Below, in pieces: positions 1-26,472 of a stretch of 26,472 bases of DNA (the first letter of the stretch is position 1; each line of letters starts with the position of its first letter). The notes under the pieces were generated by a model. It did no database searches. It was not told the origin of the DNA and saw only the letters and a program-made list of their open reading frames with translations. The DNA is taken from positions 1 through 26,472 of the IMG/VR virus record IMGVR_UViG_3300009129_000714, one strand, 5' to 3'. The DNA comes from a virus. Both the position numbers and the translations under genes were made by a program.

Positions 1-3000
1 GCCCCCTGTGAAGGTGGCGACGCCCCACTTGAGGGGGTCGCGGAAGTGGCCCATCAGAGAGAAGTATTTGTCGCTGCCGGTTTGCACGCCCTTCTCCCCG
101 AAGTGCTTGTTCATCAAGGCTGCAAGCGGACGCATGTTCATGTCTGTCCAGTACAGCTTGTGCACGCCGTCGTGCCAGCTTTCTCCCCCGGCTGCGGACG
201 CCTCCTTGGTGTCTTCCCAGAACTCGTCCCAGTCAAAGCCAGCCATCATAAAGTTCCACAGCATGGTCGTGGCAACAAAGCGCACGGCCACGTTGGCCCA
301 CATGTCTCGGTAGACCTGCTGCTCTGCCTTGCTCCCAGACTTGATGGCCTTGACAGCGGTGATGAGGTTGGACTCCGTCCAGTCCGGCGCAAGGAACACC
401 ATGCGCAGGGCCATCTGAGCGCGCACGCTGCGCGGCCCCTTGAACAGCTTGCCCGTAGACCTGCGCAGGTTGAGGCCGCCAAAGTCAGCGTTGAGCTTCT
501 CAGCCGCAAGCCTGGCGACGTACTCCTGGGCGGAGTTGTCGGGGTTGTTCTCCGTCCACAGCGGGTTGCTGCTGTCCCACGGCATCGCCAGTTCGGCGGC
601 GTACTTGCGCTTGAGGTGGGCGTACTCAATCATTGCGCCCTGCACCTTGAGGTGTGCGCCCATGTTGTTGAACAGCCAATGCGACGCGCGCCGCTGCGTG
701 GCGACGAAGTTGTCGTAGCCCTGCATGGCCTTTGGCGTAATGCCTATCTTTTTCAGGGCGCCGTCAAGTTTCTTCCTAAAGTCTGTCAGGTCGCTAATGA
801 GGGCGGGCTCCAAATCCTGCACGGACCCCACGGTCAGGCCGGCGCGCACAAGCTCGACAAGCTCGGGGGCCTGGCTCAGGATCGCCTGCCTGCCCGCCTC
901 GTAGGCCGGCATGTTTCTGGCGGACGCCTCAACGCTCTCCCTGCTGATAAGGCCGACGGCATACCCCGCCGTCTTGATTGCCGCCGTTGCAATGGACGGC
1001 AGGTGCGGCAGGTTCTTCATCATGGTCGGCCTGTCCATCGTCACGATGGAGCTTCGCATGAACGCCTGGTGGTGGAAGAAGCTGAACGTCAGGATGGTGT
1101 GCTTGGCCCACGAGTTCACCCCGATCAGGTGCGCCATCACCGGGTTGAGGTTGTCGTAGTCGTACGTCTCCGTGATGGCGTTGAGCGTTTTTGCAAGCTG
1201 CCTCGGGGCGACATACCCGATGAACTGCGGCGCCCGCAGCGGCATGTACCCGTCCCTGCGCCCGACCTCGTCGTGCTTGGCGATGATGCCCTTAGACTTG
1301 AGCGTGTCGATGAGCCTGGAGTTGTACACGGCCTCGCCCACCTGCCTTGACGCAACCCGCTGGGCCTCGATTGCGCCCGGCACCCGCAGCGTTTCGCCCA
1401 GGGCCTGGCCCTGCAAGATGCTGTCGTAGACGCGCTGCTTTTGCCGACCGCCAGGCTTGGTGCGCAGCGGGCCTCCAGGGCGCAAGGGATCAACAAGGCC
1501 GCCGCCGGCCCCCTGCCCTTTGCGGAACCACAGGCGCGCAGCGTAGACCTCCTGCTTGCCCCCGATGACTCCGTTGCGGACAGCGACGGTGCCGATCTTG
1601 TCGTTCTCTAGGATTAGCTGCTCGGCAAGGGCGTGGACCTGGGGCTCTTGCCGCTCGAGGCTTTGCGATAGCTCCCACAGGCGGCGCTGCTCGGGGCTAA
1701 GGTCGGCCCGGTATGTGTTGTATAGCTCCTGCGCGCTGCCGTACACGGGCGCGCCCTGCTCGTCCACCATGCGCAAGGCGTTCTTGGTGTCGATGTACAG
1801 CAGCATTGCCGCATCGCGGTCGCGCACCCACTTGTCGTTCTCGCGCGGGCTCAGCCCCACCGGGGCAAGCTCGTCCAGCTTTGCGCTGTGCAGCTTGCTG
1901 GTGGTGTCGCGCTCAAACAGGAACTGGTCGAGGTTTGCCAGGTACTTGTTGAGCAGTACCACCGACTGCCGGGGGTCGGCGCCGGGCACCAGCAGCGAGG
2001 TTGCAGGCCCGCTGACCGGGGTGTCCGTTACGGCGTAGGGGTCGTCGCCAAAGCGCCTGTCGCTTGGGTACAGCGGGCGCAGCCCCTGCGCAGCGCGCGC
2101 AATGTTCATGTCCTGCACCGACATTGCCAGCGCGAACTTGGGGGACATGGCTGACATGCTTTTGAGGTCGCCCGGCACGGCAGATACGTTTGTCTGCTCA
2201 CTTGCTATTTGCTCCCCCTCTGTCGGCTGGCCTACCATGGCGGGAATGGGGGCGGGCAACTCGTGGCCGTGCATGGCGCGCGGCTTTGGCAGGGCAAGGT
2301 AAACCTCCTCCGCTGCTATGGTGCTGCCCTTTATCGCCCTGGCCTTGTCTACGGACAGCCCCCCCTTGAACCTGGAAAGGTATCGGCCCCAGAGGTCGCG
2401 GACATGCTCTTCGATGCCTTCCTTGGTAAGCGACAGCCCTGGGTAGTTATCCGTTTGGGTGTACTCGGCAAGCGTTGCGGCGGCCCCGGAATGCCCCGGC
2501 TGGCCGGGCGTAAGCGCGCCCGGCTCCGCAATGGCTTCGGGGCCAGCCGTTCGGAGCAAATCTCCCCTACCTCGGGAGACGCTCCATACGGAGTCTTCCT
2601 GCTCGGCGGCCTCCTCGCTGGCGGCTAGGTGCACCAAGACGAACCTGGCCTTCTTCGTTCGGGCTTGCGGCGCCAGGAACGTGACGTACTGATGCTCTTC
2701 GTCAATCCCGTTTTCGTTCGTGGTCCCCCGCGAATACCAGACAGGCACAGCGAGCGTGTTGTTGCCGTGCCTGATTGCGACAATGACTTTCTGGTCAGCC
2801 CGAAGGGGGGCCCCCTCAACGCGCATCGGCCTTCCGATGCCTGTCTTTTTGCCGAGCTTTCTCGCAATTTGGGGCAGGATTATGTCGTACGTCCTAACAA
2901 ACGAGTACAGGGGTCTGGCGCCAGGGCTCCCCGAATCATTCCGCACCCACTCCATTGCTTTCTTGAGGCGCTCCGCGGGGTCGATAAACGTAACCCCCGG

Positions 3001-6000
3001 CGGCGGGTCCCCTTTGTCTTTGAGTGCCCACCCAATGCGGCCCGCCCCATGGGCGGTAACTTTTTCGGCAAGCTCCGGGTCGTGCTCCAGCAGATAGCGA
3101 AAGCCAGCAAGCGTCTCAGGTTGGCCGCCATAGTTGCGAGCAATGATCTCTTCGCCGGTAGGCCAGGACAGCTCTTTGTATCCAAGCTCCGCCGCGCGCA
3201 TCATTGCCAGCTTGAAGAACGCGGTGCGCCAGCGCCCGCTTCCAAACGGGGAGCCCCACTCCGGCGGGATTTCTTTGTTTCCAACTTGCTGCTCAAGGTC
3301 CGACTGCATCTCTTCCAGGCGCAGCCGGGTCGGGGTCTCGACGGAAAACCGCATCCAGCCAATCATGCCGGGCGTTGCCAGCCGAGCCGTTGGCCCTCCA
3401 AGGTGTTTGCGCTCGTAGTCCGGGTGCTCTCTGAACCCGTCAAGGAGCACTGCCACCTCGATGTGCTGGGTGGCGCCGGCAGTCTTTTCGTGGCGCCAGT
3501 ATTCCGGGATGACTTCGGGGGAATACTGCAAGTCGCCGCCGCTGAAGACCACCGTTTTCAGCACGAGCCTGCGCTTCTGCATTTTGTCGAGCACCTGCTC
3601 CCGCGTGATCGGCCTGCCGGGCTCCTGCTCCGCTTTCAGTTCCGCTTTGATCTCATCCCAGCCGATGGCTTCTAGCTCTGCCGCCAGCGCCACCTTTTGC
3701 ACGGAGCGGTCAATGTCGTCCACCGCGTTCTTGCCGCCCCACTTTTTGTTAGGCAGCGCGCCGACCGCTTGCTCGGCTGCCGAAAACATGTTCGCGGTAA
3801 TCGGAACCGTGACTGCAAAGTTGGCCTCGTCCTTCTCGGTTGTGCCATCCTCCTGCTCGCGGATGGCGTCAGCCGAGGAGATGATGTCGGCGTCCAGCAC
3901 GTAGGCAACCTTAGTGCGCGGAGCCCCAAGCTCCTCGCTTTGCTCTACCGTGTTGATGACAACCGTGGTCCCCTCCGGAACCTCGATGTCGTCAATCGAC
4001 TCCAACGGCTCGGCTGTTGTAACCTCGACCACCGTGCCTGGCGGTGGCAGCAGCACGGACGCGCCCTCGCCCTCGGCCAGGGCCTGCTCAGCCATGGCCT
4101 CGAGCGCTGCGTTCGCCTTGCTGTCCATCTGCCGCAAAGCCTCGGCGGCCTGCGGTGCGGACGCCAGGTACTCGTTTAGGGCGGCCTGCGCGGCCTCCCT
4201 TTCCTCGGCGGACAGGCCACGCGCCTCCGCCACGGCCTTCTCCGCCACCGCGACGTTCGCCTCCATGTCCGTCTGCTCCTTTTCGACGCGGGCCCTGGCC
4301 GCCATCAGGTCGGCAACAGCCCCCTCTCTTGGAGTCTCCGCCGCCTTGCGCCCCTCCTGGTTGGTCACGAAGACAAGCGTGTCGCCCTCGACCTCCTCCG
4401 CCTCCCACCATGCAAACGTGCCGCCAGCGTTGTCGCGCACGGCATGGTCGGCAGACTTGACCATGAGCACGCCGGCATGGTCGGGCTGCACCGTAGGCAT
4501 GTAGCCAGCTTGCGTGATCTTGCCCGCTGCGGATTCGCCGTCGCCGTAGCTCACGTTGTCCACGACGGGCGTGCCAAGCCCCAGAATCTCGGCTTCCGAC
4601 ACAGAGCCCTGGGCGATGCCAAGCAGGTCTTCGGCCCCCACCCCCTGCTTGTGCAGGATGCTGTACAGGATGCGCGAGCGGCGCGACGCCCACGGCTTCC
4701 AGTCCTTGCCCTTGTTGTATGCCTGCAACGCGCCCAGTTCGCCGGGGATCAAGCCCACGTCTTCGTCGGTCACGTCATGCGACGCCATGACCGCGCCCTC
4801 CTCGCCAGCGGTCAGGTCTGCAAGCACGCCCGCAGCGGGGTTCTCCATGGCGGCGTACGCGCCGCCCTCTGGCGCTTCGTACAGGCGCTCAAACTGGCGG
4901 TCCACAATGGGCTCAAGGCGCCTCCAGAGCTTCTGGTTGCTGCCCTGCAAGCTGAGCAGTTCTTTTCGCAGGTCTTCTGTGTCCTGCCGGGGGTCAATGA
5001 ACGGCAGACCGGGCTGCGCTCGGTTGTGAACAATGGCTTCGCTCTGTAGCTCGGAGCGGTCCATGTCACGCAATCGCCCGGCTTGCGGGCGCGGGCCCGT
5101 TGCGGGGGGCCGGATGACGCCGCGCTCCTCCATGGCCTCGCGCTGCCGCCTTTCGCCTCCGGCCTCGCCTTCGCCAAGCTGACGCCTTTGTGCCGCTCGG
5201 CGCTCTGCCTCGTCTCGTCGCGCCTGCTCCTCCGGCGAGACAATGGGCTGCGGTCGAACCGTGGCCGGCCTGGTCGCAAAGTCTAGGTCGCCTTGCTCTG
5301 CGGACTCAATGCCCTTTAGCGCCTCCATCAGCGCGTCCGTTCTTCCGTTGAGCGGCGGAGCGTCTACGCCGCCTTCTTTGTGGCGGCGCAGCGCCTCGAT
5401 GATGGCTTTGCGCTGCTTGCCCCTCGGCATCTTTTCGATGCGCTCGGACTCCGACAGGAACGGGCTGTCCTCTGCAAGCCGCTCTTGCTCCTCCTCCGTG
5501 AGTTTCGCTGCGGCATCCGGGGCAGGCGCCGGGCGCTCTTGCCTGCTTGCAGCGCGACGGCGACTAGACCTCTTCTTGCCGCCGCCGGCCTTGGCCGGCT
5601 TGGCCCCCGGCACCGTGCTCAAATCGGCGTAGACAGGGCCGCCCTCTTTGTAGGTGCCATAAACCGTGCCGTCGTCGAGCTTGCCAAGGGGGGTGAAGTC
5701 TTTGCCGGGGGCTTTTTCCTGGGTGCCCATGACGCCTGCGGCCCTGGCCTCGTCTTGCTCCCCCGAGAGGGCGCGCACGTCGTCGGCATCAAGCTCGTTG
5801 CGCGGCAGCGTGGGCTCAACGGGCTCGGGGTAACTGTCCGGGTCTTGCTCGTGCAGAGCCTTACGAACCCTGTAGTGCTGCGTGTCACGCCACGCCTTTC
5901 GCTGCGTCGGCGTGGGCTTGCGCGGCTTGCCCGCTTCCTCTTCTTCCGGTGCCGCCGCCTTGACCCTTCGCGGCTCCGGGTCTTCAAGCGGATCGGGCTC

Positions 6001-8910
6001 GGGCTCCGCCGCCTTCTTCCTGGCTTTCTTCTTGGCCTTCTTGCTGGCCTTCTTTTTTGCCCCAGGCTCTGGCTGCTCTTGGGTCTCGGGCTTGGGCGGG
6101 CCCTGGACCTCGGGCTCGGGCTGCTCCTGCGGCGCCCCAACCTCGGCTTCGTCAATCTCTTCGCTAAGCGAGCGGTCAGCGGCTGCGCGGGCTGCGCTGT
6201 CGGGGTTCTCGGCAGCGTCTTTGACGCCGGCCTGCTCCTCGGCCTCCCACGAAGCCGGGACCGGGGGCGCCGAGAACACGCCATACAGCGCGGTTGCAAC
6301 CTGCGTTGCGGCGGCTACCTGGTCGCTGCTCCACAGGTCTGCGTCCCCGCCGATCTCCTCCTTGATCTTGGCCCGAATTGCGCGCAGCGCCATGGTGTCG
6401 ATGTTGATCCACGGCAGCTTGCTTGCGGCCTTTGCAAACATGTCGGCCACCCGGTACGCCACGTTGTGCCGCTGGGCGAGTAGCTCGTTGAACAGGTGCA
6501 TGTTGTCGGCAACGTGCATCTGGTGCAGGAGCGGCCACAGAATCTGCGCCATTACGGCCACAGTCTCTTCGGTCTCGCTGATCTCTTTGCCTGGGTGTTG
6601 CTTCTGTATGGCTTCAACGTACGCCTTGCGCGCGGCCTCGTACGGGCCAGGCATGGCGGTCTTGATGAACTCCTCTAGCGCCTCCATCGTTTTGGGGAAG
6701 CGCTGGTATGCCTCGTGCACAAGCTCGTGGAACAAGTGCTCCCACCTGCGACGGCGGGCAAGCTCCTTGATCTCGGGCTCGGTCATGTCCGCCATGGCGT
6801 CGGGCGTAAGCCCGACGCCCTCTACGGCGCGACCCTCGCTGTCCTTGAGCCCGATCTCGGCCATTGTCTGCACAGACATGTCCGACATCATCGGGCGGCT
6901 CATCACGATGACGCGGCCCTCCTTTTGGGGGCCATACCGCCCCCCCTCTACGCGCTCGTTGTACTTGTACTTAGCGTGCAGCGACGGGATTCGGTGGCCT
7001 TCGCCGTCAACCCACATCACGGCAACGCCCAGCCGACTAAGCATGTCGGCAACTTCTTGCTCCTCGGGCGTGTACTCCGATTGCGGGATGGCGCGAACGT
7101 CCTCGCCCATCTTGACTACGCTTGCCTTGGACAGCCGAGGCACGCCCGGCATGCCAATGGCCGAGGGCCCTTGCGGCGTCACCGGCTCAAACTCCACGTT
7201 TGCGTGGACGGAGCGCCCTGCAACGCTGCCGCTTACAGCGTCTTGGTCAAGGTACGTGCGGCTAAGGCTGTCTTGCAGCGCCTCCACAGCGTCTGTCTGC
7301 GCTGCGCCCCACCCCTCAAGCTCACCGCCGTCGTACTGCTCCAGGTTGGCCGTGAGCGACCGCACGGCCTGGTCGGCCTCTTCTCGGTCCTTGACCCCGT
7401 GGAGGGCCTCCTGCGCCTGCTGAACGGCTGCCTCGCCAGCAGCCTCGGGGTTCTCCTCGCCCCGTGCGGCGGCCTCCGCCGTCGCCTTCATGCGGATTGC
7501 AAGTGCAGTCGGCTTGGGTAGCTCGACGCGCGCCTGCATGCCCGTGACTTCCCGAATGGCTCCGGGGGCGGTAGCAATAAGCTGGCGCACTACGCCCATG
7601 TCGGCGCGGCGTCCCGACGACAAGATCTTTGCCGTGCCGCCGGTCGCGCCAGAGATCAGGCCCATGCCGAGCATCGTGCCCAGCAGGTTTTCCGGCTCCC
7701 AGAACTCCTCCCACGCCCCCTCGAGCTGTCCGATGTGCCCCACGTCGGGGAGGCCCCGCCCGGCTAGGTCTCGCGCCCCGGCGCCGAACACCTCCTCGAG
7801 CATCTCGACTGCAAACGCAGAGAACGGCCCCTTGCCGTGGACGCCGATCTTGGACAGTCGCTTGCTGACTACGTCGGCGCCGTACTTCTGCACGCCCCTG
7901 CGCACGATGTGGCCTTTGAGCCCAGGCACAATGCCCATTGCGGCCTTGCCGAACATCGCGCCCGTCGCCTCGGACCACATCTCGATGTAGTCGTCAAGGA
8001 TGTTTTTAGGCAGGTAGCCCAGCCATGTGCCGGCGTCCTCGTCGATCTCTGCAACCAGGCTGTCGGCTGCGGTCAGCGACAAGCCTACGTTGTCTGAGAA
8101 CCAGTCGCGCATCGAGCCTGCGCGCGAGCGGCCAGCGCTGATGCCGTTGGCCCCAAGCGCGTCCATGGCGCCGCCCACCATGTGGCCCGCAAGGTTCTGC
8201 CCGAAGTATTGCCGGGCACCAACGCCCATGGTTGCAATGACAGGGGCGACCACGGACTGCGCCATTTGCGGCGCCGTCGCTGCCCACCGCTTGGCAATGC
8301 CTTCAACTGATTTGCTGCCCGCTTTGATTAGATGCCTGGTTAGCGCCGTCTTGCCCGCCGCCGTCATCCCGAGCTTTGCCGCGCTTTTCCAGACGGCGCC
8401 ACCGATGGCAAACTCGGGCAGGAACGCTGACGCCTCACCGACCGCCGCGCCTGCGGTAAAGCCGATGCCGGCGTACTGGGAGCGGTAGAAGAACTGCTCA
8501 ATGTCTTTGAGAAGCTCTAGCTCGTCCGCTGTTGCGGTGCCTTCTTCGGCGCGCTCGGCGGCTTGGCTTGCGCGGTAGATGTACTCTGCGTCGGTGGCTA
8601 AGCTGACGGCGGGGAAGGCAATGCCAAGGCCCGCGCGCTCGCGCCCCAGCGCGCCCGTAAGGGCCCCTTCGCCAAAGCCGGGCGTCGTCTCGCGCTCGAT
8701 TAGGTCTTCGCGCCAATCCCTCTGTTGCCGCGTGTCACCAAACGGCTGCTTCTTGAGGTATGCGGTGCGCGCCGAAAGGCCGGCGTCGTCCATTTCGGAC
8801 GTAAGCCCCGCGCCGTCGATGAGCTTGAGCACGTCCGGCGGCAGAGAGCTTGCCTGCTGGGGCTCCTGCATCGCGGCGCCGGGGGGCAGGGGTTTTTTGT
8901 AGGTAGCCAT
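1..8910 (-). CDS. Giant polyvalent/internal virion protein, 3' end cut by window edge
   Basis: A single open frame of 2970 codons starts at the ATG at 8910, three bases after the preceding stop, and runs off the left edge with no stop. Visible parts: Gly/Ala-rich hydrophobic segments (about residues 146-175, 216-250, 405-428); an HELVH metalloprotease-like motif at 728-732 with Glu at 779-782 as a possible third zinc ligand; a Pro/Glu-rich linker holding KKASKKAKKKARKKA (about 952-966); a region of about 1715-2025 with LEEMQSD (1865-1871) and YDIILPQIARKLGKK, which match the order of motifs in the EIQSDWHQ-type domain of phage polyvalent proteins; and a C-terminal part with LAPDWTESN (2840-2848), also typical of such proteins. 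The position downstream of internal virion proteins suggests it is packaged and ejected with the DNA; this is inference. Reading frame and motifs are seen directly. Domain names come from remembered family patterns. No strong Shine-Dalgarno is visible, so translation is probably coupled to the upstream gene. Confidence 0.9.
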   Translation of the reverse strand, partial: MATYKKPLPPGAAMQEPQQASSLPPDVLKLIDGAGLTSEMDDAGLSARTAYLKKQPFGDTRQQRDWREDLIERETTPGFGEGALTGALGRERAGLGIAFPAVSLATDAEYIYRASQAAERAEEGTATADELELLKDIEQFFYRSQYAGIGFTAGAAVGEASAFLPEFAIGGAVWKSAAKLGMTAAGKTALTRHLIKAGSKSVEGIAKRWAATAPQMAQSVVAPVIATMGVGARQYFGQNLAGHMVGGAMDALGANGISAGRSRAGSMRDWFSDNVGLSLTAADSLVAEIDEDAGTWLGYLPKNILDDYIEMWSEATGAMFGKAAMGIVPGLKGHIVRRGVQKYGADVVSKRLSKIGVHGKGPFSAFAVEMLEEVFGAGARDLAGRGLPDVGHIGQLEGAWEEFWEPENLLGTMLGMGLISGATGGTAKILSSGRRADMGVVRQLIATAPGAIREVTGMQARVELPKPTALAIRMKATAEAAARGEENPEAAGEAAVQQAQEALHGVKDREEADQAVRSLTANLEQYDGGELEGWGAAQTDAVEALQDSLSRTYLDQDAVSGSVAGRSVHANVEFEPVTPQGPSAIGMPGVPRLSKASVVKMGEDVRAIPQSEYTPEEQEVADMLSRLGVAVMWVDGEGHRIPSLHAKYKYNERVEGGRYGPQKEGRVIVMSRPMMSDMSVQTMAEIGLKDSEGRAVEGVGLTPDAMADMTEPEIKELARRRRWEHLFHELVHEAYQRFPKTMEALEEFIKTAMPGPYEAARKAYVEAIQKQHPGKEISETEETVAVMAQILWPLLHQMHVADNMHLFNELLAQRHNVAYRVADMFAKAASKLPWINIDTMALRAIRAKIKEEIGGDADLWSSDQVAAATQVATALYGVFSAPPVPASWEAEEQAGVKDAAENPDSAARAAADRSLSEEIDEAEVGAPQEQPEPEVQGPPKPETQEQPEPGAKKKASKKAKKKARKKAAEPEPDPLEDPEPRRVKAAAPEEEEAGKPRKPTPTQRKAWRDTQHYRVRKALHEQDPDSYPEPVEPTLPRNELDADDVRALSGEQDEARAAGVMGTQEKAPGKDFTPLGKLDDGTVYGTYKEGGPVYADLSTVPGAKPAKAGGGKKRSSRRRAASRQERPAPAPDAAAKLTEEEQERLAEDSPFLSESERIEKMPRGKQRKAIIEALRRHKEGGVDAPPLNGRTDALMEALKGIESAEQGDLDFATRPATVRPQPIVSPEEQARRDEAERRAAQRRQLGEGEAGGERRQREAMEERGVIRPPATGPRPQAGRLRDMDRSELQSEAIVHNRAQPGLPFIDPRQDTEDLRKELLSLQGSNQKLWRRLEPIVDRQFERLYEAPEGGAYAAMENPAAGVLADLTAGEEGAVMASHDVTDEDVGLIPGELGALQAYNKGKDWKPWASRRSRILYSILHKQGVGAEDLLGIAQGSVSEAEILGLGTPVVDNVSYGDGESAAGKITQAGYMPTVQPDHAGVLMVKSADHAVRDNAGGTFAWWEAEEVEGDTLVFVTNQEGRKAAETPREGAVADLMAARARVEKEQTDMEANVAVAEKAVAEARGLSAEEREAAQAALNEYLASAPQAAEALRQMDSKANAALEAMAEQALAEGEGASVLLPPPGTVVEVTTAEPLESIDDIEVPEGTTVVINTVEQSEELGAPRTKVAYVLDADIISSADAIREQEDGTTEKDEANFAVTVPITANMFSAAEQAVGALPNKKWGGKNAVDDIDRSVQKVALAAELEAIGWDEIKAELKAEQEPGRPITREQVLDKMQKRRLVLKTVVFSGGDLQYSPEVIPEYWRHEKTAGATQHIEVAVLLDGFREHPDYERKHLGGPTARLATPGMIGWMRFSVETPTRLRLEEMQSDLEQQVGNKEIPPEWGSPFGSGRWRTAFFKLAMMRAAELGYKELSWPTGEEIIARNYGGQPETLAGFRYLLEHDPELAEKVTAHGAGRIGWALKDKGDPPPGVTFIDPAERLKKAMEWVRNDSGSPGARPLYSFVRTYDIILPQIARKLGKKTGIGRPMRVEGAPLRADQKVIVAIRHGNNTLAVPVWYSRGTTNENGIDEEHQYVTFLAPQARTKKARFVLVHLAASEEAAEQEDSVWSVSRGRGDLLRTAGPEAIAEPGALTPGQPGHSGAAATLAEYTQTDNYPGLSLTKEGIEEHVRDLWGRYLSRFKGGLSVDKARAIKGSTIAAEEVYLALPKPRAMHGHELPAPIPAMVGQPTEGEQIASEQTNVSAVPGDLKSMSAMSPKFALAMSVQDMNIARAAQGLRPLYPSDRRFGDDPYAVTDTPVSGPATSLLVPGADPRQSVVLLNKYLANLDQFLFERDTTSKLHSAKLDELAPVGLSPRENDKWVRDRDAAMLLYIDTKNALRMVDEQGAPVYGSAQELYNTYRADLSPEQRRLWELSQSLERQEPQVHALAEQLILENDKIGTVAVRNGVIGGKQEVYAARLWFRKGQGAGGGLVDPLRPGGPLRTKPGGRQKQRVYDSILQGQALGETLRVPGAIEAQRVASRQVGEAVYNSRLIDTLKSKGIIAKHDEVGRRDGYMPLRAPQFIGYVAPRQLAKTLNAITETYDYDNLNPVMAHLIGVNSWAKHTILTFSFFHHQAFMRSSIVTMDRPTMMKNLPHLPSIATAAIKTAGYAVGLISRESVEASARNMPAYEAGRQAILSQAPELVELVRAGLTVGSVQDLEPALISDLTDFRKKLDGALKKIGITPKAMQGYDNFVATQRRASHWLFNNMGAHLKVQGAMIEYAHLKRKYAAELAMPWDSSNPLWTENNPDNSAQEYVARLAAEKLNADFGGLNLRRSTGKLFKGPRSVRAQMALRMVFLAPDWTESNLITAVKAIKSGSKAEQQVYRDMWANVAVRFVATTMLWNFMMAGFDWDEFWEDTKEASAAGGESWHDGVHKLYWTDMNMRPLAALMNKHFGEKGVQTGSDKYFSLMGHFRDPLKWGVATFTGG

Positions 8911-8913
8911 AGA

Positions 8914-10953
8914 CTAACGCCGCTTAGAGTTGGCCTGAAGCAGCTTCTCTACCTCGCGGATTTCATGCTTGATCTTGCGACGTATTTTCGCTGCGCCTCG
9001 ACCGTGCTTCTTGCCCGCGCCGGCTAACTCCTGCCTTAGCTCGTCAAGCAGCTTCAGCAACGCCTCCTGTTCAACCTCGGCATCGGGCTGCGTCCCGGTC
9101 TCCGGCTCAAACGGGAGCAAGTCGGTACTAACGCGCTCGGCGTGCTCTTGAAGTGTGGCGCCTTCGCGGTCCTCCCACGCGGTGCCACGCTTCTTGCTGC
9201 CTTTGCTTGCCTTGCGCTGCTCGGCCTTTGCGGCCTCGGCGGCCTCGATGAGACTGTTTGCCCTTTCGAGCCGCTCTTCGGGTTCATTTCCCGTCGCGCT
9301 CAGGTACTCTTCAACAAGCGGCGCAGCTTCCTGCGTCCCGCTGCCCGCTCGACCTTGCGGCAAATCGCCTACGTCATCAGCGGCGCGGTTGCCAAGCTGG
9401 TAGCCCGCGCCCCCAGCCATGCGCGGCCCCAGGCCGTCATCCGTGGAGTCCCGCTGTGGAAGTGCCGTCAGAGGGCCGACTTCTGCCTCGCCGCCGGGCT
9501 GCTCGCTTGTCATGGCCTCCCATAGCTCGCCGCCGACTTGAACCGGGTTGCCTTCGGCGTCTACTCGGCGGCCCATGTGCGTCGCGGGCCAGCCGCCGGG
9601 GGGCTCCCATTGGTCTACCTCGCCGAAGTAAGGCTTGCCAGACCGCGGGACTAGCCGAGGCACCTCATGCTTCGCCTTTAGGTTGCCCCTCATGGTCGTC
9701 GAGTACAGGTCGTCAACCGTCATGCCGTTGCGAGTAAGGTAGCGCTTGATGGCGTCAGACCAGTATTGGTCTACCTCGAACTGGTCTTTGGACGTAGGCT
9801 CGGGCACGCCAGCCTCCTGCAACATGCCTTTGATGTACTCGGTGTTGCTAAAGACCAATGCCTGCTCCTCGCCAACAAACGCCTCAAGGCGTGCGGCAAA
9901 GATAGGGTTGTCCTTAAAGGCGGCGGTCACGTCGTAGGCAAGCCCGCTGCCTTCGGCTGCCGGGTAGCGCGAGCCCGCTATGCCCTCTGCCCAGGTTCTC
10001 TTTGCTTCGTAGTCATCGAGGGCCTGGCGCGACGCTGCAAGCTGGCCCTCAAGGTCTCGTAGCTGGAGGTTGTAGCTGTCTTTGGCTGTGGGGTCGGCAA
10101 GGCCAACGGCAAGCTCGGTGATCGCTTTGTCGTACCAAGCCTTTAGGTCTGCACGAGACATAATGTCTGCCGGCGGACCCATCTGGATTTTCTCTACAGC
10201 GTCCTGGGCGTCCTCGGGCAGGGCCTTTTTGTCGTTCTCTTCAATCCATTTGTTGACCCTTCGCTGGGCGATCTCTTGAACCTGGTCGGTCATCTGCGCG
10301 CGGCGCCATGCGTTTTGCCACGCCAGGCCGGTTGTCCGAAGCGTCTCCTCTAGCTCGGTCCCCGTCATGTCGTTGAGGCCGCCCGGCTCTTTGAAGCCAG
10401 CCTGCTCAGCCCATGTGCGGATTTGCTGCCGGTACTGGGACTCGGTGTACGCAACGACCTCGTCGCTTTGCAGGAACTCGGAGGCCTCCCGCCGGGTCTC
10501 CCCAATCCACACCTCCGCTTCAAGGCGCTGGTCTGGCGTAGATGTGGGGTCGGCAAGCACGGCCTGGGCGTGGTCGTACCGCTGTTGCAGCCGGGTCGCT
10601 ACGGATGGGTTGACGGTCGCCACTTTGTCGAAGCCTTGGCGGTCAGGCGTGCCTGACGGCTGGCTTTCAATAGGGCCTCCGTTCCCCAGGGCAGCGCCGG
10701 GCATGGGGGCGCCCTGGGTGGGAGACGTAATAGACCCGCCGAGCTTGTAGGAGTGCAGCGCGTTCTCGTACTTGAGCTTCTTTAGCTGCTCCGCGTCTAG
10801 CTTCTCGTCGCGCTCAGCCTGGCGCATTGCCAGGCCCATCTTGAGCCCATCCTGCATGCCTTGGGCCACGCCCGCAGCCGCGCCGGCAGCGCCGCCCAGG
10901 GCACCGCTGATGCCACCCATGTCGCTCTTGAGTGCTGTGAAGAGACGTGCCAT
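8914..10953 (-). CDS. Probable internal virion protein (679 aa)
   Basis: I do not recognise a named family. The N-terminus (residues about 10-45) is Gly/Ala-rich and hydrophobic, with small residues that could form a membrane-active helix. It is followed by charged, probably helical coiled-coil segments (about 45-70 and again around 260-300). The centre has many Trp/Tyr residues and ordinary globular composition. The tail, after about residue 560, is rich in Lys, Arg and Glu and ends in basic KKHGRG and IRRKIKHE segments, suggesting contact with DNA or with another virion protein. The start overlaps the previous stop as TAATG, and the stop lies three bases before the giant gene. Its place after the tail genes, size and helical composition are those of podovirus ejection (internal core) proteins. 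It is probably a structural partner of the giant protein; this rests on position rather than homology. Confidence 0.7.
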   Translation of the reverse strand: MARLFTALKSDMGGISGALGGAAGAAAGVAQGMQDGLKMGLAMRQAERDEKLDAEQLKKLKYENALHSYKLGGSITSPTQGAPMPGAALGNGGPIESQPSGTPDRQGFDKVATVNPSVATRLQQRYDHAQAVLADPTSTPDQRLEAEVWIGETRREASEFLQSDEVVAYTESQYRQQIRTWAEQAGFKEPGGLNDMTGTELEETLRTTGLAWQNAWRRAQMTDQVQEIAQRRVNKWIEENDKKALPEDAQDAVEKIQMGPPADIMSRADLKAWYDKAITELAVGLADPTAKDSYNLQLRDLEGQLAASRQALDDYEAKRTWAEGIAGSRYPAAEGSGLAYDVTAAFKDNPIFAARLEAFVGEEQALVFSNTEYIKGMLQEAGVPEPTSKDQFEVDQYWSDAIKRYLTRNGMTVDDLYSTTMRGNLKAKHEVPRLVPRSGKPYFGEVDQWEPPGGWPATHMGRRVDAEGNPVQVGGELWEAMTSEQPGGEAEVGPLTALPQRDSTDDGLGPRMAGGAGYQLGNRAADDVGDLPQGRAGSGTQEAAPLVEEYLSATGNEPEERLERANSLIEAAEAAKAEQRKASKGSKKRGTAWEDREGATLQEHAERVSTDLLPFEPETGTQPDAEVEQEALLKLLDELRQELAGAGKKHGRGAAKIRRKIKHEIREVEKLLQANSKRR

Positions 10954-11498
10954 TAGTTATGCCCTGGAGCCATCGGCGGCCCCATGCCGCCTGGCCCCAG
11001 CCCGCTAGGGTTGATTTGCGTCTGCCCTGGGTTCATCGCGTTCATCATCATCGCCGTCGAGGCTATCTGCGCCCCTGCGCCTGCAAGCGCGCCGCCCATG
11101 CCCGACGCCTGGTACTGGATCATGGGGTACTCCAGGCCCTGGAACGCGGCGGCCCGAGCGCCCTTGTACTGCGAGTAAAGGGCGGCCAGCGCGTTGCGCG
11201 TGTCCATAGCGTGGCCTCGCTTGGCGCCAAGGCCAACGGTGGAGGTGTCGGCCCACCCACCCCTAGCCAAGCCTGCAAGCAGGTTTTTGCGACCGGCCTC
11301 CATTTGACCGGCCATGCGCTGCTCGGAGCCCTTGTAGCCCTGTTGAAGCTCCCCCAGCGCCTTCCACATGTTCTCCCGCTGGAACTTGAGGGCCGCAGCC
11401 TGCTGCGCCTCGTTGGCCTTGCGAGCGTCACTCGACTCCTTCGCGCCCATTGCAAGGCCGCCTACTCCCAGACCGACCGCCGCTGTTACCAGGGCCAT
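10953..11498 (-). CDS. Probable small internal virion protein (181 aa)
   Basis: The start chosen is the ATG at 11498, two bases after the acetyltransferase stop; the frame stays open further upstream but that extension would overlap the neighbour by about 110 bases. The N-terminus (MALVTAAVGLGVGGLAMG) is a hydrophobic Gly/Ala/Val segment of about 18 residues that could span or insert into a membrane. A charged, probably helical stretch follows (about 20-70), and the C-terminus is rich in Gly, Met, Pro and Ala with low complexity. This plan, a hydrophobic N-terminus and helical middle in a small protein placed before larger internal proteins, resembles T7 gp14-type ejection proteins that form a pore in the outer membrane. 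No sequence motif proves this. The stop overlaps the next start as TAATG, which suggests coupled translation and fixed stoichiometry. Confidence 0.6.
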   Translation of the reverse strand: MALVTAAVGLGVGGLAMGAKESSDARKANEAQQAAALKFQRENMWKALGELQQGYKGSEQRMAGQMEAGRKNLLAGLARGGWADTSTVGLGAKRGHAMDTRNALAALYSQYKGARAAAFQGLEYPMIQYQASGMGGALAGAGAQIASTAMMMNAMNPGQTQINPSGLGPGGMGPPMAPGHN

Positions 11499-11500
11499 AG

Positions 11501-12001
11501 CTAGTTCCCCACTTCCTTGATGTAGCCAACCTCGAAAGGCTCGTATCCCCAGCGCCTGAACAGGCGCGACAGCCGCATCCCTGTCTCGTCCACTAGGTGT
11601 GTCATGCAAACGCGCTTGGCGTTCGCCCCTGCGGCAAATGTTTCAAGCACCCGAACCAGGCGCCGGGCAAGCGGCCCCTTGCGGTGGTCCGGGTCCATGT
11701 ACCAAATAGCCTCGGTGACCTGGATTGCGCCATCTGTGTGCGCCAATGCAACGGTCGCCGTGAGCAACCCCACCGGCTTGCCAGCCTCGTCGGAGCAGTA
11801 CAGCACGACACCCAACCCCTCGTTGAGCAGGGACGACCAGTAGCGCACCCAGAAGTCCGCACAGAAGTCGTCCAGGTACCCGGGCCCGGCGATCTCAGCG
11901 TGAAAGCTATGCGCCAGCCCCGCCAGGGACTCGACCTCGCTGGACTCCGCCACGCTGATGCGTACCTCGCCGGCCTTTTCGTTCTCGATAGGGCTAACCA
12001 T
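11501..12001 (-). CDS. GNAT-family N-acetyltransferase
   Basis: GNAT enzymes transfer an acetyl group from acetyl-CoA to an amine. The 166-residue length is normal for a single GNAT domain. The hallmark motif A region is visible at about residues 98-118: a beta strand (AIWYMDPDHR) followed by the pyrophosphate-binding RKGPLARRL loop and helix. A later segment ends in FRRWGYEPFEVGYIKE, the usual motif B end where 'GF/GY' precedes the last strand. The N-terminal part contains the acidic, aromatic helix typical of the substrate side. The gene starts one base after the upstream stop and ends two bases before the internal virion gene, so it belongs to the late operon. Similar acetyltransferases occur among podovirus tail and internal protein genes; their substrate is unknown. 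A virion protein or an early host target are both possible. Confidence 0.8.
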   Translation of the reverse strand: MVSPIENEKAGEVRISVAESSEVESLAGLAHSFHAEIAGPGYLDDFCADFWVRYWSSLLNEGLGVVLYCSDEAGKPVGLLTATVALAHTDGAIQVTEAIWYMDPDHRKGPLARRLVRVLETFAAGANAKRVCMTHLVDETGMRLSRLFRRWGYEPFEVGYIKEVGN

Positions 12002-19957: not shown

Positions 19958-21828
19958 TGAGGTGCCTGCTGTACGGGGCCTTGCATCATCTGCGCCATCA
20001 TGTCGCCCATCATCGGGACGGACTTAGACGGCTTGGGCTGGTCGGTGCCCATGAGCCTGCTGGACCCCACGTCCTTGCCCATGCGGGGCTGGGACGGGGT
20101 GGCAGCCGGTTGCGCCTGCGACTGCTGCATCTGCATCAGGTCTTGCGCGAGGCGTTGCAGCAAGCTCGTAGTCACAAGCTCCGACATATCGGGCGCGTTC
20201 ATGGCGTTGCCGATCTTGGCAAAATGCTCGCGCCACGGGTAGTCGGGGAACGCCGCCATCGTGGGCAGCGAGTTGATGAGGATTTGGTGCATCTCCAGCG
20301 CGCGCTTCTGGGCCAGGCCCTCGCTGGCGCGCTCCATGGAGTACGGCTCGATGTCTAGCTCCAGGTCGTCAAACGTGTAGCCCTCATCGTCATCGTGGCC
20401 GCCGCCCTGGAAGAGGATGGCAATGTCATCGGGCAGCCCCATCTCCTTGATGGCATCCTCCCCGAGCGGGAACACGATCTCGTCGTCGTGGTACATGTAG
20501 TACGCGACGAGCCGCAGCAGCTTGACGGTGGAGTCGGCAAACACCTGGCGGACAAAGGCCATCCGTGTGTTTGCAGCCTCGCTGGCGATGGTGTGCTCTG
20601 TCGCCGTTCCCGAGCCCGTGACAGCGCCGCGAAGGGCCTCGTCCATGCCCAGCACGCGGTCGGCGCGCTGTCGGCAGGTGTTGATCCAGACGGCCTGCTG
20701 CTCGGTCTGTCCGCCTAGCTCGAACTCCTGCACCAGGGCCTTGCCGTCCTCGAAGGGCACCACCGTCACGTAGTCGTGCTGTGTGTTCTTGACAAGCTGG
20801 GCCGTGCGGCTGTCGTTGACCCCGACGATGCGCTTGTGCTTCATCATCGAGTTGCTGGCGGCCAGCACATGCTCGTTGAGGTCGGTGATCTGCGTTTGCA
20901 CGGCCACCAAGGGGGACAGCGGGTAGGCGTTGTCCGGCACCTTGTAGCAGCCAAACATGACGTACGGGCCCGTGCGCGGGCCATAGAACGGACGCGGCTC
21001 CCTGATGAGGTGCGCCTTACCGTCCTTCTCGTCGCCAATGGGCTGGTTCAGCCCGAGCGTGTAGATCGTGCCATGGAACCCGGCGTCGGGGCCGGGCTCG
21101 CCATCAAGCTGGACCTCGGGGACCCACACCTCGTAGCACCAGATCTCCTTGCGGTCCACGGCATCCGGGCCCTGCTCGTAGGGCAGGCGCTCGCTTTGAT
21201 CGTCCGCTGTGCCGGTGGACAGTTGCTGGATGACATCCTTGTTCCAGCCGGCGTCGGGATTGTCCTTCGCCATCTCGAGGAGGTCTTCTTTGTCGCGGCG
21301 CCAGATGTGCCCGTAGAAGCGGGCGTCCTGCCAGCGCTGCGCCTGGGGGTCGATGAAAAAGCGCTTCTGCGACAAGCGCTCTATCACCGGCCACGAGGGG
21401 GTAGCCGCCTTGATGGGGTCCGACTGCGGCAGCGTGACGCCCTTGTTCTGCTCCTGCCGGACAAGGCACACGCCCCAGCTAAGCAGCATGTCGGTGGCAA
21501 GCTCGACAAGCGAGGCGCGCAGGTAGCTGTCTTTGCACCAGCGGTTGAGTCCGTGCCGCAGCGCCTCGGCCACGTCTTGCTGGGCGCCAGGCCGGCGAGA
21601 GCTAACCTGCACGCGCGGGTTGTCGTACACCAGCCGTGGGATCATCAGGCTGATGTACTCGTAGTACGTGTTCTCCGGCGCGTAGCCGTCCACGCCGCTG
21701 TCGTCAGGGGCATACGCCGGGCCGGTGAAGCGGTGTACCTGCTCCTCTAGCTCGGTCAGGCGGCTCTCGCGGAACTCGATAGCCGACTGGATCTCCTGCA
21801 TGAGATCCTTGGGGTCAGTCGATAGCAT
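19954..21828 (-). CDS. Portal protein (624 aa)
   Basis: Portal proteins form the twelve-subunit ring through which DNA enters and leaves the head and on which the terminase docks. The gene follows the large terminase, overlapping its end by 14 bases, which is the standard order. The N-terminal helix is charged (EIQSAIEFRESRLTELEEQ), then comes NTYYEYISLMIPRLVYDNPRV, a stretch typical of this class. Around residues 225-330 are WCYEVWVPE, the turn PRPFYGPRTGPYVMFG and YKVPDNAYPLSPLVAVQTQ, which matches the usual 'pYPlsp' region before a long helix (TDLNEHVLAASNSMMKHKR). Residues about 400-470 contain the GSGTATEHTIASEAAN helix. The C-terminus is Gln/Met/Pro-rich and disordered (SVPMMGDMMAQMMQG). 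Length is within the usual range. Family call by pattern and order; a named subfamily is not given. Confidence 0.85.
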   Translation of the reverse strand: MLSTDPKDLMQEIQSAIEFRESRLTELEEQVHRFTGPAYAPDDSGVDGYAPENTYYEYISLMIPRLVYDNPRVQVSSRRPGAQQDVAEALRHGLNRWCKDSYLRASLVELATDMLLSWGVCLVRQEQNKGVTLPQSDPIKAATPSWPVIERLSQKRFFIDPQAQRWQDARFYGHIWRRDKEDLLEMAKDNPDAGWNKDVIQQLSTGTADDQSERLPYEQGPDAVDRKEIWCYEVWVPEVQLDGEPGPDAGFHGTIYTLGLNQPIGDEKDGKAHLIREPRPFYGPRTGPYVMFGCYKVPDNAYPLSPLVAVQTQITDLNEHVLAASNSMMKHKRIVGVNDSRTAQLVKNTQHDYVTVVPFEDGKALVQEFELGGQTEQQAVWINTCRQRADRVLGMDEALRGAVTGSGTATEHTIASEAANTRMAFVRQVFADSTVKLLRLVAYYMYHDDEIVFPLGEDAIKEMGLPDDIAILFQGGGHDDDEGYTFDDLELDIEPYSMERASEGLAQKRALEMHQILINSLPTMAAFPDYPWREHFAKIGNAMNAPDMSELVTTSLLQRLAQDLMQMQQSQAQPAATPSQPRMGKDVGSSRLMGTDQPKPSKSVPMMGDMMAQMMQGPVQQAPQ

Positions 21829-22677
21829 CGGTCAAACCCCGGCTTTCAAGGTACATATCGGAGTGGCCGAACAGGTCTCCGTAGGTCCCGGACTCGTACT
21901 CGGGCGGGCGATCAGGCTCGGACATATCCTTGTTCCACAGGAACATTGCAGCGTAGCGGAGGGCGTCTACACCGTGGTCTGAGCAAACCGGGTCGGGCCG
22001 CTCCTTGACCGGGCGCCCGTCCCTGCTCTTTGCCCACACATAGCTGGGCATCTCCTCAATCAGGCAGCAGGGCTTCTTCTTGCCTACCCGATCCTCGTCA
22101 CGACCGCTAAGGCAGTCCCGCACAACGTGGATGCGCGGGCCGTTGTCTACCTCGCTCAGCGCCCAGCGCACCATGTCGATGCCCGTGCGGATAGCGTTCT
22201 TGGCCTTGCGTGCAATCCTGTCGCCGTCGCGCCCGCGCGCAGCGCCAAGCCGGTCATTGAACACGCGGATGTACTCAGGCTCGCTGGGGTCGCAGACAAG
22301 CGCTTGCAGGCCAAAGTCCCGCTGCGCCTCCATGACGCGCTCCGCCCACCAGTCCTGGTTCTGGTTCGTGCGGTAGATTTCCCGCAGCATGTACATCGCG
22401 TCGTCGCGCACGCCCCACACTTGCAGCGTGCCGGGGTGCCGCAGCCCCTTGTCGTAGCTGGCAAAGTGCCACTTCATCTCCGGCAGGTCTTCGTGGTCGA
22501 TCAGGTGTACCGACGGGTCCCACTCCTCGAAGATGATGCCCTCCTCGCTGGCCCATTTGCCCTCGTAGAGGTTCGCCCTACGCGCCCCGGTGAGGTGGTT
22601 GAGGATGCCGTGGACGTAGGCGTCGCCCTCCCGCGTCCACTCCCCCTCGCTATGCTTCCAATACACCGGGTTGTCCG
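21815..22677 (-). CDS. terL: Large terminase subunit, C-terminal (nuclease) part after apparent frameshift
   Basis: This is the second piece of the packaging motor, in the -1 frame relative to the ATPase piece. Homology-style continuity begins at DNPVYWKHSEGEW. The nuclease domain cuts concatemeric phage DNA. Its expected acidic clusters are visible: FASYDKGLRHPGTLQVWG (first Asp), then ALVCDPSEPEYIRVF (second Asp), and finally VCSDHGVDALRYAAMFL, the typical 'DH-xDALRY' third motif. If joined to the ATPase part through one extra residue, the protein would be about 483 residues, a normal length. The frame stays open upstream to about 22846, but that upstream sequence is out of frame with the true protein. 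It ends inside the portal start. As written, this part has no natural start codon of its own; translation would need recoding or the sequence contains a one-base deletion. Confidence 0.85.
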
Positions 22678-23265
22678 GTGTCGAGACAGCAAGCGCACAC
22701 ATTTGTCGCCACGATGTCGCTCGGGCACCTCGCGGAAGCCTTGCGGGAAGTGCGTGTTCAGCCAATGGAACTCGCCGGCAGGGTTGGTGTCCGCAATCCG
22801 CATCTGCCAGGGCATCTTGAAGTTGCGGTTCGCACGAGCCAGCCACTCCCAGGTGTCCGCGCCGATTTCGCGGGCCTCGAACACCGCAATCACGTCATAT
22901 TGCGTGGAAAACGTCTTCTCGGGCTTGTCTAGGCCGCCAACAACGATGTGTGAGCCGTTGGGATACTGGTAGTTTTGTCGCGTGTTTCGGGACGCAGAAC
23001 CGTGGATTGAGGGGTGTCCGGCCCACAACACCTCGTGTTCGAAGGTCACAAGCACGGATTCGGTCAACGACTCCCGCGTTTGGCGCAACATCAGCACGCG
23101 AATGCCGGCATACGTCTCGCACAGGAAGTTGATGTACTCCAGCAGCGCCCTGGTCTTGCCGGTGCCCGCCGGGCCCTCCAGCAATAGCTCGGTCGCGCGC
23201 AGATACCATAGCTGGCGCGCTGCCCCGTACGGGGTGTACTCGTGTACGACCGTGTTGCTTGCCAT
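22501..23265 (-). CDS. terL: Large terminase subunit, N-terminal ATPase part (frame broken near 22678)
   Basis: The motor ATPase drives DNA into the head. The start is the ATG at 23265, overlapping the previous stop as TGATG; a longer upstream start is unlikely. Walker A is GPAGTGKT at residues 31-38. A hydrophobic strand with acidic end, DVIAVFEA (E130 as the probable catalytic acid), forms Walker B, and the coupling-type segment is ADTNPAGEFHWLN (158-170). The genuine sequence continues to RLLSRH (residues 191-196, last codon at 22678-22680). After that the frame reads about 59 residues of Arg/Ser/Thr-rich nonsense to the stop at 22501, while the expected DNPVYW follows in the neighbouring frame. 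The true product is the fusion with the C-terminal piece. The junction lies inside a perfect hairpin, so a deletion, an assembly error or recoding must be distinguished. Confidence 0.88.
   Translation of the reverse strand: MASNTVVHEYTPYGAARQLWYLRATELLLEGPAGTGKTRALLEYINFLCETYAGIRVLMLRQTRESLTESVLVTFEHEVLWAGHPSIHGSASRNTRQNYQYPNGSHIVVGGLDKPEKTFSTQYDVIAVFEAREIGADTWEWLARANRNFKMPWQMRIADTNPAGEFHWLNTHFPQGFREVPERHRGDKCVRLLSRHRTTRCIGSIARGSGRGRATPTSTASSTTSPGRVGRTSTRANGPARRASSSRSGTRRYT
22663..22681 (-). other. Perfect 7-bp hairpin at the terminase frameshift
   Basis: ACACCGG (22675-22681, minus strand) pairs perfectly with CCGGTGT (22663-22669) around a five-base loop ACAAC. The stem covers the exact codons where the terminase frame changes (after His196, before Asp-Asn-Pro). 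It could be a sequencing or polymerase trouble spot, or part of a recoding signal; no standard slippery heptamer is seen just upstream. Confidence 0.75.
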
Positions 23266-23735
23266 CAGCCGATGCTCGTCATGGGCTTGACGTAGACAAT
23301 GCTGGCCCAGCAAACGCTGCCGTAGCTAACAGACCCGTGAGCGGAGTCCGTCGTGGCGTTGTTGAGGACGAGCGTGAACTCGATGCGGTAGCGGTTTCCG
23401 CCCTCCATCCACGACCCGTAGGGGACCCTGTAGAAGAAGTTGTAGCCGGTGTCGTCCACGCCTCCCCAGAACCCGTCCGTCAGCGGCGAAGCGCTAACGT
23501 CGTTCATCACGAGGAAGTTTGCGACGCTGCCGCTAAAGGTCGCGGTGTAGACCGCCTGGTCCTCGACAGCCGCGTTGCCGCTTAGGTCGTACGCCTTGAC
23601 GGTGAGCCAGTCGTCATCCCCGGCGGTCACGTCTGTGCGGGTCACGTACACCCCGTCAGCGCGCACAAGCCGGTAGGTCAGGAACCAATCGTTCCCCTCC
23701 AGCACCTCGCCCGAGTTGACTACCGCGTCAGCCAT
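23265..23735 (-). CDS. Unrecognised beta-rich protein, possibly virion-associated (156 aa)
   Basis: The start overlaps the previous stop as TAATG and the stop overlaps the terminase start as TGATG, so the gene is well fixed. The protein is rich in Val, Tyr, Asp, Gly and aromatic residues, with regularly spaced strand-like segments: DWFLTYRLVRADGVYVTRT, DDWLTVKAYDLSGNA, AVYTATFSGSVANFLVM and NRYRIEFTLVLNN. The aspartate and aromatic spacing is like a beta-sandwich such as a carbohydrate-binding or Ig-like fold. The segment 'DDTGYNFFYRVPYGSW' is notable. I do not recognise the family. Because it sits directly before the terminase with an unrelated beta-rich neighbour, it may be a head or tail surface component made from this transcript. 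No signal peptide or membrane helix is seen. Confidence 0.7.
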   Translation of the reverse strand: MADAVVNSGEVLEGNDWFLTYRLVRADGVYVTRTDVTAGDDDWLTVKAYDLSGNAAVEDQAVYTATFSGSVANFLVMNDVSASPLTDGFWGGVDDTGYNFFYRVPYGSWMEGGNRYRIEFTLVLNNATTDSAHGSVSYGSVCWASIVYVKPMTSIG

Positions 23736-26039: not shown

Positions 26040-26415
26040 CCGGCTCCTCCAACTGCGGACGCGATCCGTCCATGTCGATGACCTCGAACTCCGGCTCCGC
26101 AAACCCCAGGCGCTTCACGTGCGTTACCTCCGTCCTCGTCTCCAACTGCCGCACCACCGCACCATCCAGACGGTCAAACAGCAGCGCAGCACACTTCACG
26201 TCACCCTGCCGTGCCTTGTGGATCAAACCCATCACCACGTGCTCCATGTACTCCGGATGCTCACGCACGTAGTCCTTCAACGCCTTCACCAAGCTGATGC
26301 TCTTGCTACCCGACATCTTCGGTGGCCTCCTCTTGTGCTCCGCAGGGATCGCTCCCTGACGCTCTAGCTCGTCCCACGCCTTTGCCGGCGTACTCGGGGG
26401 GTTGGGGTTGCTCAT
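26032..26415 (-). CDS. Probable small terminase subunit (127 aa)
   Basis: The small subunit binds the packaging start site and loads the large terminase. After a disordered, basic N-terminus (PAEHKRRPPKMSGSKS) there is a helical core, LVKALKDYVREHPEYMEHV followed by IHKARQGDVKCAALLFDRLDG. The pattern 'ALK-Y--EHPE ... GDVKAA-LL-DR-DG-V' is shared with small proteins often annotated as small terminase subunits or related helix-turn-helix proteins next to packaging genes in other phages. The C-terminus is acidic (EFEVIDMDGSRPQLEEPDA). It is the first gene of the late set. The large terminase is 2.8 kb downstream, which is unusual. Start ATG at 26415; no clear Shine-Dalgarno is seen. Confidence is moderate because the core motif also occurs in general proteins of unknown role. 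Confidence 0.55.
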   Translation of the reverse strand: MSNPNPPSTPAKAWDELERQGAIPAEHKRRPPKMSGSKSISLVKALKDYVREHPEYMEHVVMGLIHKARQGDVKCAALLFDRLDGAVVRQLETRTEVTHVKRLGFAEPEFEVIDMDGSRPQLEEPDA

Positions 26416-26460
26416 AATATTTTAGGACCACCCGCATGGGACCCACCACCCTACAGAAAT
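26416..26460. other. Short non-coding leader upstream of small terminase gene
   Basis: Forty-five bases with no gene. The part nearest the start is AT-rich (TAAAATATT just before the ATG on the minus strand), which stands out in this GC-rich DNA and includes a -10-like TAAAAT at 26419-26424. No matching -35 is visible and the distance to the start is very short, so I do not call a promoter with confidence. Confidence 0.3.
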
Positions 26461-26472
26461 GGGGGGGGGGGG
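26461..26472. repeat. Terminal poly-G tract
   Basis: Twelve consecutive G at the extreme right end of the window. This is typical of a read or assembly end artefact, although a true homopolymer cannot be excluded. Confidence 0.8.

Follow-up and report, generated by a model that had tools for sequence, protein, structure and literature searches.

The giant gene on the minus strand of a linear phage fragment from an IMG/VR record likely encodes an internal virion protein that fills the slot of the largest ejection protein, that of T7 gp16, and combines several effector modules in one chain. The whole stretch of 26,472 nucleotides analysed here is called the window. The giant has a constant, uncatalogued C-terminal module, which is linked here with a particular gene slot and with payloads that vary. 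Should this module act as a packaging signal, sequence searches could systematically reveal the effectors that uncultured phages deliver, and the role of ejected polyvalent proteins could be tested module by module. A further region, named here the QSD module, represents a widespread, unlisted family with a predicted GNAT-like fold, whose invariant residues are suited to mutation.

Extent and Selection of the Giant Gene

The giant polyvalent protein gene occupies 1..8910 of the window (minus strand). A total of 2970 stop-free codons are seen from the ATG, the frame being open at the window edge, and alignment with a homologue places ∼124 further codons beyond position 1. This full-length homologue, in IMG/VR 3300030107_006280 (G001), is 3116 aa long, free of stops and 82% identical over residues 1-2970. 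Codon comparison gave dN/dS values of 0.10-0.54 in each of 11 segments, so the reading frame is in use throughout, and the gene is under purifying selection over its whole length. The uninterrupted frame of at least 2970 codons reported by the first-pass annotation was confirmed by the complete homologue and by dN/dS. Synonymous divergence was very uneven, at 0.06 in residues 441-900, 0.08-0.13 in residues 2261-2970 and 0.22-0.64 elsewhere, and parts of the gene have likely been swapped by recombination between relatives.

Other features named in that annotation fared differently. The two polyvalent-type regions were confirmed, at residues ∼1795-2075 and 2486-2970. The lysine-rich tract was found at residues ∼951-968 (6007..6060, minus strand), where a variable linker of low complexity begins; the linker/cargo as a whole spans residues ∼931-1620 (4051..6120, minus strand), with ∼45-92% identity per 60-residue window between close relatives. 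The hydrophobic segments proved weak, amounting to an Ala/Gly-rich N-terminal region and one 19-residue window above a Kyte-Doolittle value of 1.3 (residues 2874-2892); with this single window, the giant has no clear transmembrane helices. Searched whole and in slices, the giant gave no Pfam match and no usable PHROGs or PDB match, and tblastn against 50,697 phages, with the giant, its C-terminal part or its middle as query, returned nothing relevant. The LPD38 model did not match the giant, and its controls were likewise unmatched.

Gene Neighborhood and the Ejection Slot

The window genes run in the order TerL, SU10-type portal, major head protein, decoration protein, three genes of 361, 955 and 236 aa, a GNAT, a ∼218-aa gene, a 679-aa gene and the giant. 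The giant is therefore placed among late virion genes, with TerL, portal and head genes upstream, and this late-gene order resembles that of short-tailed phages. In G001 no further large gene of the late block follows the giant, and opposite-strand genes come next; these include a RecT-like protein and a nuclease, as judged by eye. The window TerL (21815-23313, minus strand) is broken by a single-base frameshift at ∼22,680 relative to two relatives; intact copies exist, and the break is possibly a sequencing error or real decay. We also observed that the right end of the window (26155-26472) is 85% identical to the left end of G001 (L004:1-318), and that the right end of G001 matches the window at ∼23,259. 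These matches point to a probably circularly permuted genome of ∼40.7 kb, of which the giant would make up ∼23%.

Three genes lead up to the giant, all on the minus strand. The stand-alone GNAT acetyltransferase (11501..12001) matched phrog_1249 and Acetyltransf_1. The next gene, of ∼200 aa (∼218 aa, start uncertain; 10953..11609), stands in the slot that phrog_418, "internal virion protein," has in relatives. Directly upstream of the giant, the 679-aa gene (8914..10953) takes by synteny the place of a middle-sized ejection protein, a T7 gp15-like position. Neither of the latter two has a family match of its own. Among 79 upstream neighbors of giants bearing the C-terminal module, the commonest family was the phrog_418 internal virion protein (5); other families were tail, tail tubular, (major) head and the phrog_1249 acetyltransferase (2). 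Four records have phrog_418 in place, and in each of them the small internal virion protein comes first and the giant last, with space between them for about a single gene of 430-600 aa. No match to phrog_418 was obtained in five records with large giants.

T7 ejects gp14, gp15 and gp16, whose genes close the virion block in order of increasing size. Since the slot order in the window is the same, we take the giant to be a probable ejected internal virion protein with cargo. Its placement directly after two internal virion proteins, as annotated earlier, agrees with synteny, although neither gene is identified by a family match. The description "ejected polyvalent protein" is well supported within limits. 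Its second part draws on the zincin, on the GNAT-like module, on the ART in the equivalent gene of a sister phage, and on a C-terminal module that dozens of giant phage proteins share; for ejection the evidence is gene order.

N-Terminal Region and Zincin

At the equivalent locus, a sister phage (TerL 76%) encodes another giant (L020:7910-12631; P0003), which reads for 1574 aa to the contig end. Residues 62-435 of the window's giant (7606..8727, minus strand) form an N-terminal conserved region in common with it, at 29% identity (E 2e-18). The N-terminal part of P0003 resembled PF18827 LPD14 at 7.7e-5 and 23.2 bits, a weak match below the gathering cut-off of 27.

The metalloprotease-like motif noted earlier is HELVH at residues 728-732, conserved in both relatives (flanking similarity E 4e-8). 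It lies in a zincin-like metalloprotease region, residues 700-860 (6331..6813, minus strand), in which a conserved E(E/D)(T/S) follows ∼50 residues past HELVH in three phages. With HExxH and a putative Zn-binding glutamate downstream, the region has the sequence features of a zincin-like MPTase. The zincin is optional, because HExxH is absent from many relatives with the C-terminal module. The sister's giant has the same N-terminus and zincin as the window's, followed by an ART-PolyVal module (below cut-off). ART in place of the window's cargo reads as cargo exchange at one locus.

The QSD Module, a Predicted GNAT-Like Fold

Residues 1795-2075 (2686..3528, minus strand) carry the [ED]E[IM]QSDxxQ (QSD) module, predicted to adopt a GNAT-like acyltransferase fold. 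The family was surveyed by a degenerate-pattern scan of IMG/VR, which gave at least 120 stretches, and then by a family profile, which matched at least 97 IMG/VR frames. The family profile HMM, with its long inserts, scored the giant weakly (E ∼0.003-0.07 at Z=1000), so membership had to be established by profile-profile comparison and invariant columns. Specifically, hhalign aligned the window's copy with the family at Prob 95.3 and E 2e-8, with 28% identity over 114 columns, and all 10 of the 10 invariant columns are retained. Pfam had no match for the four members tested, PHROGs holds the module solely within phrog_7348, a 2564-position profile labelled endolysin, and a literature search for the EIQSD motif returned nothing relevant.

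An AF2 model of a compact homologue (L116) reached pLDDT 79 and pTM 0.80. GNAT acetyltransferases made up most of its top Foldseek matches in the PDB (best E only 0.009, prob 0.97). VIA placed first the GNAT domain of M. tuberculosis ICL2 (Z 9.2, rmsd 3.0 over 128 residues), followed by the tRNA-acetylating toxin AtaT and then Gcn5; against BFVD, the model retrieved large phage proteins, some named polyvalent. A model of residues 1611-2260 of the giant itself, made from the single sequence, had pLDDT 34 and was discarded. These predictions suggest that the module is likely a divergent GNAT-like fold, as modelled in the homologue and extended to the window's copy by homology. As judged by eye from predicted secondary structure, the alignment has EEIQSDxxQxG where the usual acetyl-CoA loop R/Q-x-x-G-x-G/A would be expected, and no such loop is evident there; the donor may be a different one, or the module may lack activity. 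Among the domains described in polyvalent proteins are two RimI-like GNAT families (Iyer et al., 2017; PMC5512222). The QSD module may be one of them; its predicted GNAT-like fold appears new within the libraries searched.

The C-Terminal Module

The constant C-terminal module occupies 1..1455 (minus strand), where residues 2486-2970 are seen of a complete length of ∼620 aa. A motif scan yielded 18 stretches, 13 of them true, and an HMM was built from the 12 that came from outside the window. This HMM recovered the window's giant at E 2e-97 and the complete G001 relative at 2.7e-126. An alignment search found the module in 84 IMG/VR loci. It lay at the C-terminus, at most 150 residues from the stop, in 53 of 53 nonredundant strong cases, whose frames range from 659 to more than 3,900 aa. 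Within these 53 proteins HExxH occurred in 25 (2.7 expected by chance), the QSD module in nine, and both in six. The window's order of zincin, QSD and C-terminal module recurred in five loci (L187, L211, L218, L219, and L220).

No match to the C-terminal module was found in Pfam, PHROGs, 50,697 phage records or PDB sequences; judged by sequence, this ∼600-residue module appears to be new, being absent from the libraries searched. We regard it as an even chance that the module serves uncultured phages as a packaging/ejection platform, with exchangeable effectors (zincin, divergent GNAT, ART, and others) fused to it, such that one chain would build the ejection machine and carry the payload.

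Comparison With Known Systems

Polyvalent proteins have been described earlier, with zincin, ART and GNAT domains in phage members near late genes; a match to an LPD/PolyVal model is common in the published definition, not required (Iyer et al., 2017; PMC5512222). The giant is likewise very large, located in the late block and composed of disparate modules (zincin and GNAT-like; in the sister, ART and a weak LPD14). It differs in that it has no Pfam LPD or ART match of its own, and its QSD and C-terminal modules lie outside Pfam. Several unrelated domains occur in the one chain (zincin, GNAT-like, C-terminal module), and no catalogued LPD/PolyVal model matched it in Pfam searches of the whole protein and its slices. 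By its multidomain make-up, its zincin and its late-gene context, the giant can be classed as a polyvalent protein in kind. The first-pass annotation had put it forward as an undescribed system; polyvalent proteins as such are known (PMC5512222), but two of its modules are undescribed as far as the libraries searched extend.

The likeness to T7 gp14-gp15-gp16 lies in the slot and the size order. No sequence or profile match to these proteins was found, and the giant is more than twice as long as gp16 and has effector-like modules. N4 gp50, the vRNAP, is also comparable: it is an ejected protein of ∼3,500 aa with an HExxH zincin, and its C-terminal region is necessary for encapsidation (PMC5512222). 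Unlike N4 gp50, the giant yielded no polymerase module: no T7-type RNAP match was obtained with Pfam, PHROGs or PDB, but residues 931-1620 are divergent and might conceal one, and no phage record matches the C-terminal module. As for the P1 DarB type, Pfam and PHROGs gave no SWI2/SNF2 helicase or adenine methylase match in the giant.

The cultured pelagiphage HTVC028P, the closest isolate found, carries a QSD module in its internal-virion gene block. Its genes run gp37 (GNAT), gp36 (internal protein A, 156 aa), gp35 (565 aa), gp34 (with QSD) and gp33 (internal virion protein). Its gp34 (L146, 10204-13068) resembles the giant in having the QSD module downstream of a GNAT, internal protein A and a 565-aa gene; however, it is only 954 aa long and matches the giant through the family profile only. 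A phmmer search of the window's proteins against those of HTVC028P found no homology. Another relative in kind is the LPD23 protein of P. aeruginosa plasmid p382 (WP_042853530.1; L147), a polyvalent protein of 5,000 aa with QSD and repeated ART modules, although it is plasmid-borne and of other architecture. We also observed that the sister's ART region has 12 matched stretches in this p382 protein.

Proposed Function and Alternative Explanations

Judged by its gene position, the giant is probably packed in the virion and ejected with the DNA. The C-terminal module would pack it into the head or ejection assembly, as suggested by the N4 vRNAP, and the chain would then enter the cell with the DNA. 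There the zincin might cleave either the giant itself or a protein of the host, and a host target could be modified, presumably acylated, by the GNAT-like module in the first minutes of infection. For the role in genome protection that had been proposed, no support emerged: searches of the giant gave no domain for DNA modification, helicase activity or anti-restriction.

The same gene position would suit a purely structural protein, a long ejection-channel or core protein like T7 gp16 whose modules build a trans-envelope conduit or cut the cell wall and which has no effector role in the host. Two observations fit such a protein: conservation along the gene is highest in the C-terminal module (dN/dS 0.10), and small members of ∼1,100 aa consist only of this module and ∼550 further residues. 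We nevertheless consider this reading unlikely, given that many giants carry zincin and GNAT-like modules, that ART replaces the cargo in the sister, and that synonymous differences from 0.06 to 0.64 across the gene fit exchangeable cargo better than a channel. More improbable still is an unpackaged giant, synthesized late during infection to modify the host or to take part in lysis. The endolysin label of the related giant profile phrog_7348 would speak for lysis, yet Pfam searches of the whole protein and slices found no lysozyme or amidase domain; moreover, the gene lies within the virion block and adjoins the internal-virion-protein slots, and an effector made so late would bring little gain.

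An assembly artefact that fused two or more genes can be given almost no weight. The TerL frameshift indicates at least one possible contig defect in the window, but one uninterrupted 3116-codon frame is present on another contig, that of G001, and in three loci (L187, L211, and L220) a single frame contains the modules in the order of the window. The intact relative G001 refutes the artefact.

Host

The TerL search retrieved 13 IMG/VR records and one genome contig, CP070811.1 of an Anaerolineales MAG (TerL 73%). On this contig TerL and a broken-off portal adjoin bacterial genes (L024). When 400 Chloroflexota genomes were searched for the C-terminal module, the single one with a match was again CP070811.1, in which a separate stretch of the module (L249), with one TGA and early genes, also adjoins bacterial genes. 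Both phage pieces could be remnants or misassembled phage DNA. These results suggest a possible host among the Anaerolineales (Chloroflexota). Additionally, a giant with the C-terminal module (L227) is found on IMGVR 2522572160_000002, whose record number resembles that of an isolate genome rather than a metagenome.
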